Virus record (IMG/VR): IMGVR_UViG_3300001748_000019
Coordinates: 1-28,525 of that record
Reading direction: 5' to 3' (one strand)
Source of the DNA: a virus
Length of the DNA stretch: 28,525 nucleotides
Below the pieces are notes generated by a model. The model was given only the letters and a program-made list of their open reading frames with translations, ran no database searches and had not been told where the DNA came from. The first letter of the stretch is position 1, and each line of letters starts with the position of its first letter. Made by a program: the position numbers and the translations under genes. Below are positions 2,789 to 13,665 of this stretch, one piece after another.

Positions 2789-2953
2789 ATGTTTGGAATA
2801 TCATTTTTTCCCATATATGGGGTTGTAGCTGGAGTTCACATAAAGGACTCGACAATGGATGGAGTACCTACTGAGGAAGGGGACTATATGATGGTTCAGT
2901 TCCTCTTTTTTATTTTTGGAATAAGCCTTATATATGTTAGAGATATTAACTAA
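2789..2953 (+). CDS. Putative small membrane protein
   Basis: Encodes 54 residues with two hydrophobic stretches (about 2-18 and 35-51) joined by an acidic loop, STMDGVPTEEGD. It starts 4 bp after the RusA stop and overlaps the sigma factor gene by 20 bp, as is common here. A TATGTTTG word (2788-2795) covers its start codon. If that word acts as a -7 box, a transcript from it would lack this start codon and would serve the sigma gene instead. Function unknown; overlap style and hydrophobicity favour a real gene. Confidence 0.55.
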   Translation: MFGISFFPIYGVVAGVHIKDSTMDGVPTEEGDYMMVQFLFFIFGISLIYVRDIN

Positions 2954-3512
2954 GAAAAACGATGAGTGGCTGTCTATGGCTAGGTCTATCTGTAAAGATA
3001 ATGACCTTGCCAATGACTTAGTTCAGGAGATGTATCTCAGGATAAATAAGTATATTGATAATCCAGATAGAATAATGAAGAATGATGAGGTTAATTCATT
3101 CTTTGTCTATACCACACTTAGAAATCTATTTTATGATTATAAAAAAAATAAAAACAATAATAACAAAAGTTTTGAGGAGTATAGAGGTTACTACACGGAC
3201 GACTCGGATGAAAGTGTTATCAGCAAGTTTGCAGTACTTCCAGACCAAAGAGAGAAAGATGACCTTATGGAGGAGGCATACTATAAAATATCTGAAGCCA
3301 TATATCAGGAGGTTTCAACCTGGCATTGGTATGATGAGAAGTTATTCAAGTTATACTTCCTTACTGATAAATCTCTTAGGGACATTGCTAAGGATACAAA
3401 GATTTCACTTACGAGTATATATAACTCTTGCAAGAACTATCGAGAGAAACTTGAAGAAAAGTTCGGAGAGGATATAATGGATTTTTACAACGAAGATTAC
3501 GATAAGATATGA
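2934..3512 (+). CDS. Phage-encoded RNA polymerase sigma-70-like (ECF-type) factor
   Basis: Encodes 192 residues. DLANDLVQEMYLRI (24-37) matches the conserved helix of sigma region 2 that contacts the core polymerase clamp. TLRNLFYDYKK (61-71) fits region 2.3/2.4, which binds the -10 or -7 element. KLYFLTDKSLRDIAKDTKISLTSIYNS (139-165) fits the region 4 helix-turn-helix for the -33 element. An acidic Asn/Lys-rich linker joins the two parts. It probably redirects host RNA polymerase to a subset of phage promoters. Candidates are those in this window with unusual upstream regions, but that link is inference. It overlaps the next small gene by an ATGA. Confidence 0.8.
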   Translation: MLEILTKKNDEWLSMARSICKDNDLANDLVQEMYLRINKYIDNPDRIMKNDEVNSFFVYTTLRNLFYDYKKNKNNNNKSFEEYRGYYTDDSDESVISKFAVLPDQREKDDLMEEAYYKISEAIYQEVSTWHWYDEKLFKLYFLTDKSLRDIAKDTKISLTSIYNSCKNYREKLEEKFGEDIMDFYNEDYDKI

Positions 3513-9997: not shown

Positions 9998-10074
9998 TTA
10001 AACGCAGTAGGGTTTCTTAAACGCAATAGGGTTTCTTAAACGCAGTGGGCTTCCAAATTCTTAAACGCAGTGGG
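9998..10074 (+). repeat. Array 1: four direct copies of the 14-bp motif
   Basis: Copies start at 9998, 10017, 10036 and 10061, spaced 19, 19 and 25 bp. They read TTAAACGCAGTAGG, TTAAACGCAATAGG and twice TTAAACGCAGTGGG. Spacers are GTTTC-like. The array is followed by CTGAGAG at 10079, 18 bp after the start of the last copy. It lies between the structured region and the phased promoter of the 10201 gene. The layout resembles replication iterons or repeated regulator sites. Confidence 0.85.
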
Positions 10075-10115
10075 CTCGCTGAGAGCCACCCCTCTCCACT
10101 CCAGGTTCATAATTC

Positions 10116-10171
10116 TTAACGATTTCTTAACATTAGCTTAACGTTAACTTAACGTAGACATTGTATGTTTG
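10116..10171 (+). promoter_or_regulatory. Promoter A: four 11-bp-phased TTAAC sites plus TATGTTTG
   Basis: TTAAC begins at 10116, 10127, 10138 and 10149, exactly 11 bp apart, and the -7 box TATGTTTG is at 10164-10171. The sites lie 48, 37, 26 and 15 bp before the -7 box. No TTTG -33 box is present at 19 bp, so these sites probably replace it as binding sites for an activator or alternative sigma factor. It serves the genes from 10201 on. Confidence 0.75.
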
Positions 10172-10200
10172 TGGTATCAAACAATTAAAAACACACTATT

Positions 10201-10386
10201 ATGAAACACACTAAATTATTTATAGTATTAGATGAGGCTACCCTTCTAACGATGAAGGGAGCCAACAATAAGACGGCTAAGTTTGCTACTGAAGAGGAGG
10301 CTGATTGGGCAGCCGCCGGTAAACTAGAGATGTGGACCGTTGTTGAGGTTAACTTCAAGCACAGGTTCTTACACCATAAAGTATAA
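10201..10386 (+). CDS. Small protein of unknown function
   Basis: Encodes 61 residues: a beta strand (KLFIVLDEATLL), a loop, a helix (KFATEEEADWAAAGKLEMW) and a second strand (TVVEVNFKHRF). It is the first gene downstream of promoter A, with a short A-rich leader. It is probably an early or accessory protein; no family recognised. Confidence 0.7.
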   Translation: MKHTKLFIVLDEATLLTMKGANNKTAKFATEEEADWAAAGKLEMWTVVEVNFKHRFLHHKV

Positions 10387-10402
10387 CACTAAAAAGTAAA
10401 TT

Positions 10403-10636
10403 ATGACAACAACAGAATTTAATCCTTATAACTACGAGGCTCATTACGACCACAGAATAGACGTAGATAATATTAGCTATAGCCTTTATAGAAAAGGCGA
10501 AACTTTCGAAATAGGCTATGTTCATTATAATGTTAGAACTAACTTCGCTCACGTCACAATAGGTGACATAAGTGAAGAGAGTTTTGAAGATGATATTGCC
10601 CTCGCTATTGAGAGTAGAGAAATTGAATTAAAATAA
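10403..10636 (+). CDS. Small acidic protein of unknown function
   Basis: Encodes 77 residues, Tyr-rich and acidic (NPYNYEAHYDHRIDVDNISYSLYRKGETFEIGYVHYNVR), probably a small beta-sheet fold ending in an acidic helix. It starts 16 bp after the preceding stop and belongs to the promoter A unit. No family recognised. Confidence 0.7.
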   Translation: MTTTEFNPYNYEAHYDHRIDVDNISYSLYRKGETFEIGYVHYNVRTNFAHVTIGDISEESFEDDIALAIESREIELK

Positions 10637-10650
10637 TAAAAACAAAAGAT

Positions 10651-10986
10651 ATGGCAACAAGATGCACAATTAAAATAGACGGTATAAACTATGCTAAGAT
10701 ATATAAACATTGGGACGGATATCCTGACGGTATGCTAACTTGGCTCAATGAGTTTAACAATGACTTTAATGAGAATAGAGGTCACGACCCTGAATATAAA
10801 TTTGCTCAACTACTGAGGTTCGCTCAAAGGAAGGCGGAAGAGTTTGGCTTAGATAATAGCAGATATACAGGCTGGGGAGTTATTCCTTTTAATAATACCT
10901 GCTGGGCTGAGTACGAATATACCCTCACAAAGGATGGCGTTAGATTAATTGAAGAGCCTGAGCTGAAAAACTTAACATTAGCTTAA
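10651..10986 (+). CDS. Conserved phage protein of the MATRxTIKI...HWDGYP type, function unknown
   Basis: Encodes 111 residues. It begins MATRCTIKIDGINYAKIYKHWDGYPDG, a start I recall from a widespread family of hypothetical phage and bacterial proteins with a strand, then YxHWDGYP, then helices. No activity is established for that family to my knowledge. The last codons and the stop lie inside the two TTAAC repeats of promoter B, so this gene's 3' end doubles as the regulatory region of the next gene. It is the third gene of the promoter A unit. Confidence 0.75.
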   Translation: MATRCTIKIDGINYAKIYKHWDGYPDGMLTWLNEFNNDFNENRGHDPEYKFAQLLRFAQRKAEEFGLDNSRYTGWGVIPFNNTCWAEYEYTLTKDGVRLIEEPELKNLTLA

Positions 10987-11006
10987 CATTAGCCTACTTA
11001 TATTTG
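10972..11006 (+). promoter_or_regulatory. Promoter B: two 11-bp-phased TTAAC sites plus TATATTTG
   Basis: TTAACATTAGC occurs twice in tandem (10972 and 10983), and TATATTTG is at 10999-11006, that is 27 and 16 bp after the two site starts. It is a shorter version of promoters A, C and D and overlaps the end of the 10651 gene. It serves the gene at 11033 and those downstream. Confidence 0.65.
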
Positions 11007-11032
11007 TGGTGTAATTTTAAATATATATAATT

Positions 11033-11320
11033 ATGACTTGGATACTAACAAAAAAGAAAACACGAGTAGAAACATTCTTAGACGCTACAGAAGGCGGTAA
11101 GATATTTAGTGCCACCTTTGAAAAAAAGGATGGCACGATTAGAACGATTAACTGTCGTAGAGACGTTAAGAAGGGCGTTAAAGGCGTAGGTATGTCTTTC
11201 GACCCTATGAGTAAAGGACTCCTTGTGGTGTATGATATGCACCGTAAAGGGTTTAGAATGATTAACCTGGATAAACTTATCGAGGCTAAAGTAAATGGTA
11301 AAACAATTAAATTCTTATAA
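11033..11320 (+). CDS. SH3 beta-barrel-like protein (DUF2693-type)
   Basis: Encodes 95 residues. The pattern FSATFEKKDGTIRTINCRRDV...LVVYDMHRKGFRMINLDKLIEAKVNGK fits the phage family annotated as SH3 beta-barrel fold (DUF2693). In that family an F-x-K-x-D-G-x-x-R hairpin is followed by V(Y/F)D....GFR.(I/F)N...(I/V). The molecular role is not known. It sits right after promoter B, so it is likely well expressed. The next gene starts 1 bp after its stop codon. Confidence 0.65.
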   Translation: MTWILTKKKTRVETFLDATEGGKIFSATFEKKDGTIRTINCRRDVKKGVKGVGMSFDPMSKGLLVVYDMHRKGFRMINLDKLIEAKVNGKTIKFL

Positions 11321-11321
11321 G

Positions 11322-11594
11322 ATGAACAAAGAAGTATTTATATTAAAGACAGTAAGTTTACATAGCACCACAGGTGTTGTACATATTGAGTCAGTAGGTT
11401 TTGACCCTGAGGATTCAGCATACATAGAGATTGACGCTAGAGCTTTACTAGAGGATATTCCAAGCCTTTACAAAATGGCTAAACAAGCCATAAAACAGGA
11501 GGAGGAATATGAACTTAAAAAGTATGTTGACTTCAAGAAGGAACTTGCTGGAGACTATAAAGGTAAAAGAGGTCGAAAAAAATCTATCGCATAA
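11322..11594 (+). CDS. Small protein of unknown function with basic C-terminus
   Basis: Encodes 90 residues from the ATG at 11322, chosen over a further-upstream non-ATG start because it follows the preceding stop directly. It contains beta strands (EVFILKTVSLHSTTGVVHIESVGF), a helical Lys/Glu-rich middle and a basic tail (DYKGKRGRKKSIA) that may bind nucleic acid. No family recognised. Confidence 0.65.
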   Translation: MNKEVFILKTVSLHSTTGVVHIESVGFDPEDSAYIEIDARALLEDIPSLYKMAKQAIKQEEEYELKKYVDFKKELAGDYKGKRGRKKSIA

Positions 11595-11595
11595 T

Positions 11596-11751
11596 ATGGA
11601 TAATGAGACCCTTAAATTGGTAGAGGACTGCAGGGATTTATTGAGAGATATAAATTCCTGCACGGACTCCAGAGATAGCTCTAAGAAGCTAATAGAAAAA
11701 CAGATATATGAACTAAATAAATTAATAGACAATGAACTACAAGAAGATTAG
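11596..11751 (+). CDS. Short helical protein of unknown function
   Basis: Encodes 51 residues, starting 1 bp after the preceding stop. It is almost entirely helical, with heptad spacing (LKLVEDCRDLLRDI, SKKLIEKQIYELNKLIDNEL), suggesting a helical hairpin or coiled coil. It overlaps the next gene by 20 bp. No family recognised. Confidence 0.6.
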   Translation: MDNETLKLVEDCRDLLRDINSCTDSRDSSKKLIEKQIYELNKLIDNELQED

Positions 11752-12016
11752 AAAACTACAGGAAGAGTATGGCGTTGCTAATATGCAACGCCTAATCGAT
11801 GACGGTTCCGTATGGCATATGGAGGGGTCAATGGGGCGCAATGCAATGAGCCTGCTAGAGACAGGTCAGTGTATGTTACCCAAGAAGCAATATAAAGACT
11901 TCTACGGCAATATAATTCCTTCAAGGGATGATGTTAAACCTGGTACTACAGGAAGCTATCAGAACGCTGTAAAGTATTGGGAGTCTATTCACGATTATGA
12001 TGCGATGTATGTGTGA
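11732..12016 (+). CDS. Hypothetical phage protein
   Basis: Encodes 94 residues. KIRKLQEEYGVANMQRLIDDGSVWHMEGSMGRNAMSLLETGQCMLPKKQYKDFYGNIIPSRDDVKPGTTGS looks like a compact globular protein. I have an impression of similar hypothetical proteins in Bacteroidetes phages but can attach no function. It overlaps both neighbours by a few bases, so it is translationally coupled. Confidence 0.7.
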   Translation: MNYKKIRKLQEEYGVANMQRLIDDGSVWHMEGSMGRNAMSLLETGQCMLPKKQYKDFYGNIIPSRDDVKPGTTGSYQNAVKYWESIHDYDAMYV

Positions 12017-12134
12017 GATAGTAAGTAATTGTTGTGATGCTCCACCGATTTGGAACACCGACCTTTGTTCGAAGTGCAAAGAACACGCAGACTTCATCGA
12101 CATTGACGACATAAGCGACCTATTTGATTCTTAA
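12009..12134 (+). CDS. Small zinc-ribbon-like protein
   Basis: Encodes 41 residues. Cysteines at 2, 8, 9, 20 and 23 (CEIVSNCC...DLCSKC) form a CC...CxxC knuckle pair typical of small zinc ribbons with an NCC.AP......LC..C.EH pattern. The tail is very acidic (DFIDIDDISDLFDS). It overlaps the preceding gene by 8 bp. Its TAA stop lies inside the first motif copy of array 2 (the TAA of TTAAACGC). It may bind another protein or nucleic acid. Confidence 0.7.
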   Translation: MCEIVSNCCDAPPIWNTDLCSKCKEHADFIDIDDISDLFDS

Positions 12135-12161
12135 ACGCAGTAGGTTCTTAAACGCAGTGGG
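12131..12161 (+). repeat. Array 2: two direct copies of the 14-bp motif
   Basis: TTAAACGCAGTAGG (12131) and TTAAACGCAGTGGG (12148), spaced 17 bp. The first supplies the stop codon of the zinc-ribbon gene. CTGAGAG follows at 12166, 18 bp after the second copy starts, as in array 1. Confidence 0.85.
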
Positions 12162-12177
12162 GTTTCTGAGAGACAAC

Positions 12178-12214
12178 AGCCCCCTTATTTAGACTGATTC
12201 TAAATAGGAGGGCT
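12178..12214 (+). terminator. Long hairpin terminator of the 10201-12134 gene cluster
   Basis: AGCCCCCTTATTTAGA (12178-12193) pairs with TCTAAATAGGAGGGCT (12199-12214) at 14 of 16 positions. The following T-rich tract overlaps the first 11-bp-phased TTTAC site of promoter C, so termination and the next initiation region are directly joined. Confidence 0.8.
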
Positions 12215-12280
12215 TTACAATTTCTTTACAGTTTCTTAACATTAAGTTAACATTTAGCTAGATAGGACGCCGTATGTTTG
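12214..12280 (+). promoter_or_regulatory. Promoter C: four 11-bp-phased sites plus TATGTTTG
   Basis: TTTAC at 12214 and 12225 and TTAAC at 12236 and 12247 are spaced exactly 11 bp. The -7 box TATGTTTG is at 12273-12280. The sites lie 59, 48, 37 and 26 bp before the -7 box, in the same register as promoters A and D. It serves the Gp88-like gene at 12303. Confidence 0.75.
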
Positions 12281-12302
12281 TAGCAAATCTAAAAATAAAA
12301 AT

Positions 12303-13058
12303 ATGAGCAATTTTGAAACTAATGTATGGGACGCCGTTGCAACGAGCGTGCCAAATATGCCAAAAAAACTACTTTCACCAGGTAGCACGAATGCGAAGAC
12401 AGCAAAGAATGAGATTAAGACTTTTATACTTTACTTGATGCCATATAACCAAAACAGCGAAGGTAAACAGTTGTGCCCTCACGCGTCCAAAGGTTGCGCG
12501 GCTGCCTGTTTAGTCAGTGCAGGGCGTGGGTCCTTTAGTAATGTAATAAAGGCGCGAGTCAATAAAACTGAGCTGTTTATAAAAAATAAGCTAGCCTTCC
12601 TAAATAAATTAGCTGACGAAATTACGCAAGAAACTAAAAAAGCAAAGGACGGCGGCTATAAGGTTGCCTTCAGGTTAAATGGGACCAGCGATGTAGACTT
12701 TGTATATATGTTAAAAAAATATGGTTTCTTAGATATTGAGACACTACAGCCGCACGCGGTTTTGTACGATTATACAAAGAATATTCAGAAGGCTATACGA
12801 TATAAAAACCACCCTAACTACACAGTCACATTTTCACGTGCTGAGGACAATGCCGTACAAACGGCGTTGGCAATAAAACACGGTCTAAACGTTGCGGCGG
12901 TTTTCAATGAGCTGCCTAAAGTTTGGCGCGGTGTTGAGGTTGTGGACGGTGACACTAGCGACCTCCAGATGCTCAAATACAACGGCGTCATATTAGGGCT
13001 AAAGGCTAAAGGGCAAGCACGCAAAGACACAACAGGTTTCACAATATTAAACGGATAA
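12303..13058 (+). CDS. Gp88-like phage protein with cysteine cluster
   Basis: Encodes 251 residues. KLLSPGSTNAKTAKNEIKTFILYL (22-45), CPHASKGCAAACL (59-71) and FRLNGTSDVDF (121-131) fit the phage family known as gene product 88, first named in mycobacteriophages. That family has a conserved C-x6-C-x3-C cluster and an FRLNGTSD segment. The cysteines could hold a metal or iron-sulfur cluster; the biochemical role is unknown. Codon use (GCG, CGC, GGC) is richer in G/C than in the surrounding genes, which hints at a different origin. It has its own strong-looking promoter with the phased sites. Confidence 0.72.
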   Translation: MSNFETNVWDAVATSVPNMPKKLLSPGSTNAKTAKNEIKTFILYLMPYNQNSEGKQLCPHASKGCAAACLVSAGRGSFSNVIKARVNKTELFIKNKLAFLNKLADEITQETKKAKDGGYKVAFRLNGTSDVDFVYMLKKYGFLDIETLQPHAVLYDYTKNIQKAIRYKNHPNYTVTFSRAEDNAVQTALAIKHGLNVAAVFNELPKVWRGVEVVDGDTSDLQMLKYNGVILGLKAKGQARKDTTGFTILNG

Positions 13059-13061
13059 ATT

Positions 13062-13247
13062 ATGTACTTTAAACCTTTAAACTATAGCGACACACTCCAC
13101 GAGGTGACAAGCGAAATGTATGCGCCTTTCAAATATCATATGTTAAACTTAGAACAGCGTTTAAATGTAGTAGGCGAAACTCATAGGCGAATGAGACAAC
13201 ACGCACTGAACGCAGTGGGCTCCGCTAAACGCAGTGGGCTCCATTAA
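13062..13247 (+). CDS. Small protein whose C-terminus is encoded by the 19-bp repeats
   Basis: Encodes 61 residues and starts 3 bp after the Gp88-like gene. The N-terminal 45 residues look like a normal helical protein (SEMYAPFKYHMLNLEQRLNVVGETHRRMRQ). The last 15 (HALNAVGSAKRSGLH) are encoded by motif copies in two different frames, and the TAA stop comes from the third copy. The original stop may have been displaced when the repeats appeared. Function unknown. Confidence 0.6.
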   Translation: MYFKPLNYSDTLHEVTSEMYAPFKYHMLNLEQRLNVVGETHRRMRQHALNAVGSAKRSGLH

Positions 13248-13257
13248 ACGCAGTGGG
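13206..13257 (+). repeat. Array 3: three 19-bp direct repeats
   Basis: Units start at 13206 (CTGAACGCAGTGGG), 13225 (CTAAACGCAGTGGG) and 13244 (TTAAACGCAGTGGG), spaced exactly 19 bp, each followed by CTCC. The array runs out of the 3' end of the 13062 gene into the intergenic region. It is followed by short inverted repeats (CCCTG/CAGGG near 13276) and two similar words, AGGGAAATCCGAC and AGGGGAAATCTGAC, before promoter D. Confidence 0.85.
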
Positions 13258-13326
13258 CTCCCCTCCAATTTGCCCCCTGTCAGGGAAATCCGACCCTCCT
13301 TGTAGGGGAAATCTGACACTCAGTTC

Positions 13327-13393
13327 TTAACGATTTGTTAACGATTTCTTAACATTAAGTTAACATTGGGCAACATAGATTTTTGCATATTTG
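13327..13393 (+). promoter_or_regulatory. Promoter D: four 11-bp-phased TTAAC sites plus CATATTTG
   Basis: TTAAC begins at 13327, 13338, 13349 and 13360, exactly 11 bp apart. The -7-like box CATATTTG is at 13386-13393, one base off TAnnTTTG. The sites lie 59, 48, 37 and 26 bp before it, identical to promoter C. A TTG at 13366-13368 lies 17 bp upstream of the box. It serves the gene at 13450 after a leader of about 50 nt that contains GTTCCACGTGGAAC, a palindrome (13420-13433). Confidence 0.72.
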
Positions 13394-13449: not shown

Positions 13450-13665
13450 ATGAATACTTTTAATAATTTAAAACCAGAGATACAAAAGAATCTTAGAGAA
13501 AACGCTAAAAAATACAACACCGTCAAAAGTTTAGTATATCGCTTAAGAGGTAACGGAAGCCGATACAACTTAAGTTTTGACGACGTCAGAGACGTAATGT
13601 TCTGGGGCGGTGCTAGCCTTAAAGATACTTCAGTGAGCGACGTCTATAACGCTATATTCAAATAA
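13450..13665 (+). CDS. Small basic protein of unknown function
   Basis: Encodes 71 residues from the ATG at 13450. An upstream in-frame TTG at 13366 lies before the -7 box, so it cannot be the start of a promoter D transcript. The protein is helical and basic (PEIQKNLRENAKKYNTVKSLVYRLRGNGSRYN) followed by DDVRDVMFWGGASLKDTSVSDVYNAI. It might bind DNA, but no recognised helix-turn-helix stands out. First gene of the promoter D unit. Confidence 0.7.
   Translation: MNTFNNLKPEIQKNLRENAKKYNTVKSLVYRLRGNGSRYNLSFDDVRDVMFWGGASLKDTSVSDVYNAIFK

Follow-up and report, generated by a model that had tools for sequence, protein, structure and literature searches.

TTAAC arrays resembling host Pho boxes at four predicted promoters of an ocean phage of flavobacteria

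Phage use of the host Pho box is already known from cyanophages. In cyanophage S-PM2d, which lacks pstS, several promoters are bound by purified PhoB from Synechococcus (PMC10976474), and the same source, citing Zeng and Chisholm 2012, describes a Pho-box promoter for the pstS of cyanophage P-SSM2. Genes of marine cyanophages with Pho boxes respond to phosphate shortage in the host. The source also cautions that phage Pho boxes cannot be predicted reliably unless binding is tested (PMC10976474). In E. coli and the cyanobacteria, Pho boxes are composed of 8-bp units joined by 3-bp linkers, with the cyanobacterial version consisting of CTTAACCT 11-bp tandem repeats in at least three copies (PMC1906773). 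Among the Bacteroidota, PhoB of Bacteroides fragilis binds the pstC promoter (PMC3547664) and a Flavobacterium PHO regulon under Pi depletion has been described (PMC8115612), with no binding motif found in the accessible parts of these two papers. Our literature search on TTAAC in promoters of Bacteroidetes, and on Pho boxes of this group and of the phages infecting it, gave nothing usable, and no stated Pho-box sequence for Flavobacteriales was found in the literature searched. Here, we propose the TTAAC triple as a concrete Pho-box sequence for this order.

The window, by which we mean the whole stretch of DNA analysed (28,525 nucleotides), is a 28.5-kb virus record that encodes terminase, portal, exonuclease, ERF, RusA, and methyltransferase proteins. 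It comes from an ocean phage of flavobacteria, with the host placed no more closely than this group. By terminase, the nearest cultured phages have Flavobacteriales as hosts (Nonlabens and Riemerella), the closest by terL being Nonlabens phage P12024L (53%), in which we looked for a TTAAC triple and found none. A DNA search revealed no near phage relatives, and a terL search of 296 Flavobacteriales genomes, made for host assignment, returned a single distant match. One window protein with a sigma-70 region 2 is, by its sequence, a possible phage sigma factor; a sigma factor is annotated in P12024L as well.

Table 1. Coordinates of the predicted promoter elements and of selected genes in the window
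Feature	Position	Strand	Remarks
Sigma-70 region 2 protein	2934-3512		PF04542, 4.9e-7
Array A, Pho-box-like	10116..10153	+	TTAAC at 10116, 10127, 10138, 10149
-7 box of promoter A	10164..10171	+	TATGTTTG
Three small ORFs downstream of promoter A	10201..10986	+	61, 77, and 111 aa; no Pfam match
Array B	10972..10987	+	two TTAAC, at 10972 and 10983
-7 box of promoter B	10999..11006	+	TATATTTG
First gene after promoter B	11033..11320	+	WYL_2 domain (Sm-like SH3); small protein
Array C	12214..12251	+	TTTAC at 12214, 12225; TTAAC at 12236, 12247
-7 box of promoter C	12273..12280	+	TATGTTTG
Gene after promoter C	12303..13058	+	GP88 family (PF17338), phrog_1617; no function assigned
Array D	13327..13364	+	TTAAC at 13327, 13338, 13349, 13360
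-7 box of promoter D	13386..13393	+	CATATTTG; first base off consensus
Small ORF after promoter D	13450..13665	+	no Pfam match

Directly 3' of terL, four predicted promoters (A to D) are found within 3.3 kb (Table 1). The original prediction had described them as having TTAAC or TTTAC sites spaced by 11 bp and in phase with the -7 box, and each of these positions was found again. Counted back from the first base of the -7 box, the sites in promoter A lie at 48, 37, 26, and 15 (with an extra TTAAC, out of phase, at 20), those in promoter B at 27 and 16, those in promoter C at 59 and 48 (both TTTAC) and at 37 and 26 (both TTAAC), and those in promoter D at 59, 48, 37, and 26, with the register of B differing by one base from that of the other three. 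As for the -7 boxes, those of A, B, and C match TAnnTTTG exactly, and that of D has one mismatch. The absence of a TTTG at the 19-bp distance, as claimed earlier for A to C, also held, and no TTG occupies the -33 position in any of the four, which is what would be expected of an activator-dependent promoter. As in a Pho box, the arrays contain at least two head-to-tail units with an 11-bp period and are placed just upstream of the -7 element, where a -33 element would be. The + strand of the window contains 10 TTWAC pairs 11 bp apart and six triples, the - strand contains neither, and the averages over 300 dinucleotide shuffles were 0.26 pairs (maximum 4) and 0.003 triples (maximum 1). With up to three mismatches allowed, the triple pattern has 16 matches where 2.5 were expected, and all shuffles stayed below 16.

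The 11-bp head-to-tail repeats, three or more to an array, and a nearly identical core are shared with the cyanobacterial SphR/PhoB box, though in the phage unit TTAACA precedes a run of ATT-rich bases and the box is located at a TAnnTTTG promoter. TTAACA-like repeats are also found in the PhoP sites of Bacillus subtilis, where the repeat core and spacing are alike and the phylum and promoter differ. When compared with the marine cyanophages (P-SSM2 pstS and the S-PM2d genes), the likeness lies in phage genes with host PhoB sites, predicted ones in our case, the phage promoters here matching the Pho box of the host group. In contrast, the phylum and the sigma system are different, regular TTAAC triples to quadruples stand without a -33 element, and several boxes are contained in one 28-kb contig. 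Further, no pstS, phoA, or other phosphate-acquisition gene was seen downstream of promoters A to D; control of such a gene is not universal among the cyanophages either, as S-PM2d lacks pstS.

As a separate observation, a repeat, TTAAACGCAGTGGGCT, is present in 12 copies in the window, all of them on the + strand, as clusters (10001-10080, 12134-12166, and 13209-13262) immediately upstream of promoters A, C, and D, and as single copies at 2284, 6303, and 9658. This repeat is found in nearly all of 95 related phage loci, where every copy is on the + strand and the - strand has none, and our guesses for it are a Chi-like, packaging, or transcription signal.

In related phages, an array triple (score of at least 13 of 15) was found directly 3' of terL in 53 of the 64 contigs having at least 350 bases after this gene, many of which are close relatives, so that these counts are not independent. 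The same 64 contigs gave no triple inside terL, one in reversed sequence, and none in shuffled sequence. After de-duplication, the phage family has 17 distinct arrays. Here, the last unit usually reads TTAACATTGG, and in most of the related arrays the TAnnTTTG starts 26 bases past the start of the last TTAAC. The genes that follow the conserved array vary from contig to contig, though proteins resembling the WYL_2 protein of promoter B also follow arrays in related phages. In locus L017, the spacing is 16, as compared with 26 in L018, a near relative, and this is a 10-bp deletion that keeps the same face of the helix. A TTAACA-rich noncoding region in Felix O1-like phages (L556) might recommend replication iterons, or chance tandem repeats, with no promoter role. 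Yet those repeats are on both strands, and the arrays in the window are confined to one strand with a fixed register to the -7 box, the natural spacing variants are one helical turn apart, and shuffles do not yield arrays, so we regard this explanation as almost certainly wrong.

Beyond this family, an IMG/VR scan gave at least 75 de-duplicated arrays, a few of them from the window phage's own family. Exact TAnnTTTG offsets among those listed were 26-28 (18 arrays), 36-38 (10 arrays), and 14-16 (3 arrays), against 0.07 expected by chance per offset; as the scan pattern demanded a TTTG within range, the peaks are visible and the total frequency is not. The original prediction had asked for such a register in other phages, and the peaks at 26-28 and 36-38 agree with it. 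Among the matches listed, none of the 18 proximal arrays (at 25-28) is accompanied by a -33 TTG, as compared with six of the 10 distal ones (at 36-38). The pattern resembles that of an activator taking over the -33 contact at close range and supplementing it from one turn farther away. Among Tenacibaculum phages, the cultured Larrie (L555) has three arrays (at 11123, 15198, and 19995), each with a -7 box 37 bases past the last site and small genes of no assigned function around it, and pT24 has one array before a structural (prohead) gene. In rumen Prevotellaceae, each genome contains 100-400 TTTAACTCC arrays, with no assigned use. Two of these genomes (G002 and G004, with L107 and L139) have 11-bp arrays of the TTTAACTCCCC type by the hundreds, with up to 12 or more units.

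To find the same arrays in hosts, we searched 196 Flavobacteriales genomes for exact triples, blind to gene positions. These are rare, with 40 of the 196 having any, mostly at one or two places (usually 0-2 per genome), and the statement in the original prediction that flavobacterial genes are commonly preceded by TTAAC words is not borne out for these arrays. The arrays so located precede pstS (L219), phoB (L221), Na/Pi symporters (L223 and L527), and a porin near pstS (L220 and L224), with a TonB-receptor family also among the genes downstream of the extracted host arrays. In the small-genome Flavobacteriales, arrays lie between divergent phoB and pstS (L219 and L221) and follow pstB-phoU (L223); others lie between phoBR and a transporter-like gene (L222 and L527). 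The L222 gene was considered by eye to resemble a PiT phosphate transporter, but has no Pfam match and was thus left out of the phosphate-gene count. The upstream triple score had a median of 13 of 15 for 19 pstS genes, as compared with a median of 10 and a maximum of 12 for 30 gyrB genes. Measured from where the last TTAAC starts, the TTTG of the -7 box begins at 30 bases in phages and at 31 in hosts. The same sequence is found before pst and pho genes of the host group, and the response regulator encoded beside pstS in Flavobacteriales scores best with PhoB models, albeit below their cut-offs. Given that the same array is found at host phosphate genes, it is very unlikely that these promoters are served by an activator or a sigma factor encoded by the phage itself, even with a sigma-70 region 2 protein encoded in the window. 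The -7 boxes fit the TAnnTTTG consensus of the host primary sigma (PMC9723704), and no other clear DNA-binding regulator was seen among the window proteins scanned.

From 31 distinct phage arrays, and with phage data alone, we built a profile of the repeat unit. Over the complete 1.92-Mb genome of one Flavobacteriales member (G017), this gave four matches above 16 bits and none in the reversed genome, namely at a Na/Pi symporter (27.2), a porin (26.0), a site inside an open frame (21.1), and pstS (18.0), the three intergenic ones being side by side in the pst locus, within 7 kb. Over 296 Flavobacteriales genomes, for which the best-scoring places were listed and E-values are rough, nine of the 20 matches listed for genomes in which pstS was located fall no farther than 7 kb from that gene (about 0.8% expected per match; binomial tail about 6e-12 for the matches listed), and about half are not near pstS. 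A general strong-promoter element that needs no regulator, acting by UP-element-like contacts of the alpha subunit or by phased bending, would suit the in-phase spacing over three to four turns, the AT-rich units, and the wide occurrence in IMG/VR. We nevertheless judge it decidedly unlikely, as the matches in G017 are pst-locus promoters plus one or two open-frame sites and no general set of strong promoters, and, in contrast to loose AT tracts, one specific word, TTAAC, recurs with every turn of the helix.

The main caveat to a PhoB reading is a second class of array. In larger Flavobacteriales genomes (Flavobacterium/Chryseobacterium-like, from a reading of their proteins), a TTAACC-type triple (TTAACCnnnCATTAACC) in the same register is conserved between sensor-kinase and outer-membrane receptor genes (L229-L235 and L240-L248). 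As this class adjoins a sensor-kinase gene, TTAAC repeats of 11 bp may be read by two or more regulators of the OmpR/PhoB type, and the phage arrays might then bind another host response regulator of this family with a related site. However, the units in the phage belong to the TTAACA type seen at the pstS, phoB, and symporter sites, and not to TTAACCnnnCA, and the phage profile picks out the pst locus both in a whole genome and across genomes, which makes a regulator other than PhoB unlikely. Also counting against PhoB, though less so, are the profile matches distant from pstS, the many Prevotellaceae arrays, the pT24 array before a prohead gene, and the absence of phosphate genes downstream of promoters A to D.

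The anatomy and conservation of the arrays are established, as is their identity in sequence and register with the sites at host pst and phoB loci. On this basis, we consider it likely that the arrays are Pho boxes read by the host PhoB, from which we infer the phosphate response, the sigma contact, and the timing in infection. With several of its genes preceded by the hosts' phosphate-uptake switch, the phage probably activates them via PhoB. Upon phosphate shortage in the host, this response regulator, once phosphorylated, would bind adjacent head-to-tail 11-bp repeats (consensus CTTAACATTAA), with one monomer per repeat and dimers on pairs. Since the promoter-proximal repeat overlaps the -33 position, this is where PhoB would touch sigma and RNA polymerase and so make up for the missing -33 element, with transcription proceeding from the TAnnTTTG -7 box. 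Four short operons, mostly of early-type genes with no assigned function, would in this way be coupled to the phosphate status of the host. Side-by-side binding of an activator, as first suggested, is supported by the match to host phosphate-gene sites and by the missing -33 TTG, as through this match is the use of a host factor; intrinsic bending, the other suggestion, is unneeded and has no separate support.

What is new here, relative to the cyanophages, is the phylum, the type of promoter, the density and conservation of the boxes, the absence of phosphate genes downstream of them, and the Pho-box sequence proposed for Flavobacteriales. Tentatively, and with some doubt, PhoB promoters might serve Bacteroidota phages generally as a phosphate switch or timer, in two architectures, with the array either replacing the -33 element or lying one turn upstream and adding to it. 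As a timer, replication would drain phosphate, the host PhoB would fire, and phage genes would be turned on with no phosphate-uptake gene in the phage. If true, phage use of the host phosphate sensor would extend from cyanophages to phages of the Bacteroidota, which are major ocean and gut bacteria, and early phage genes with no assigned function would become testable with one environmental signal.
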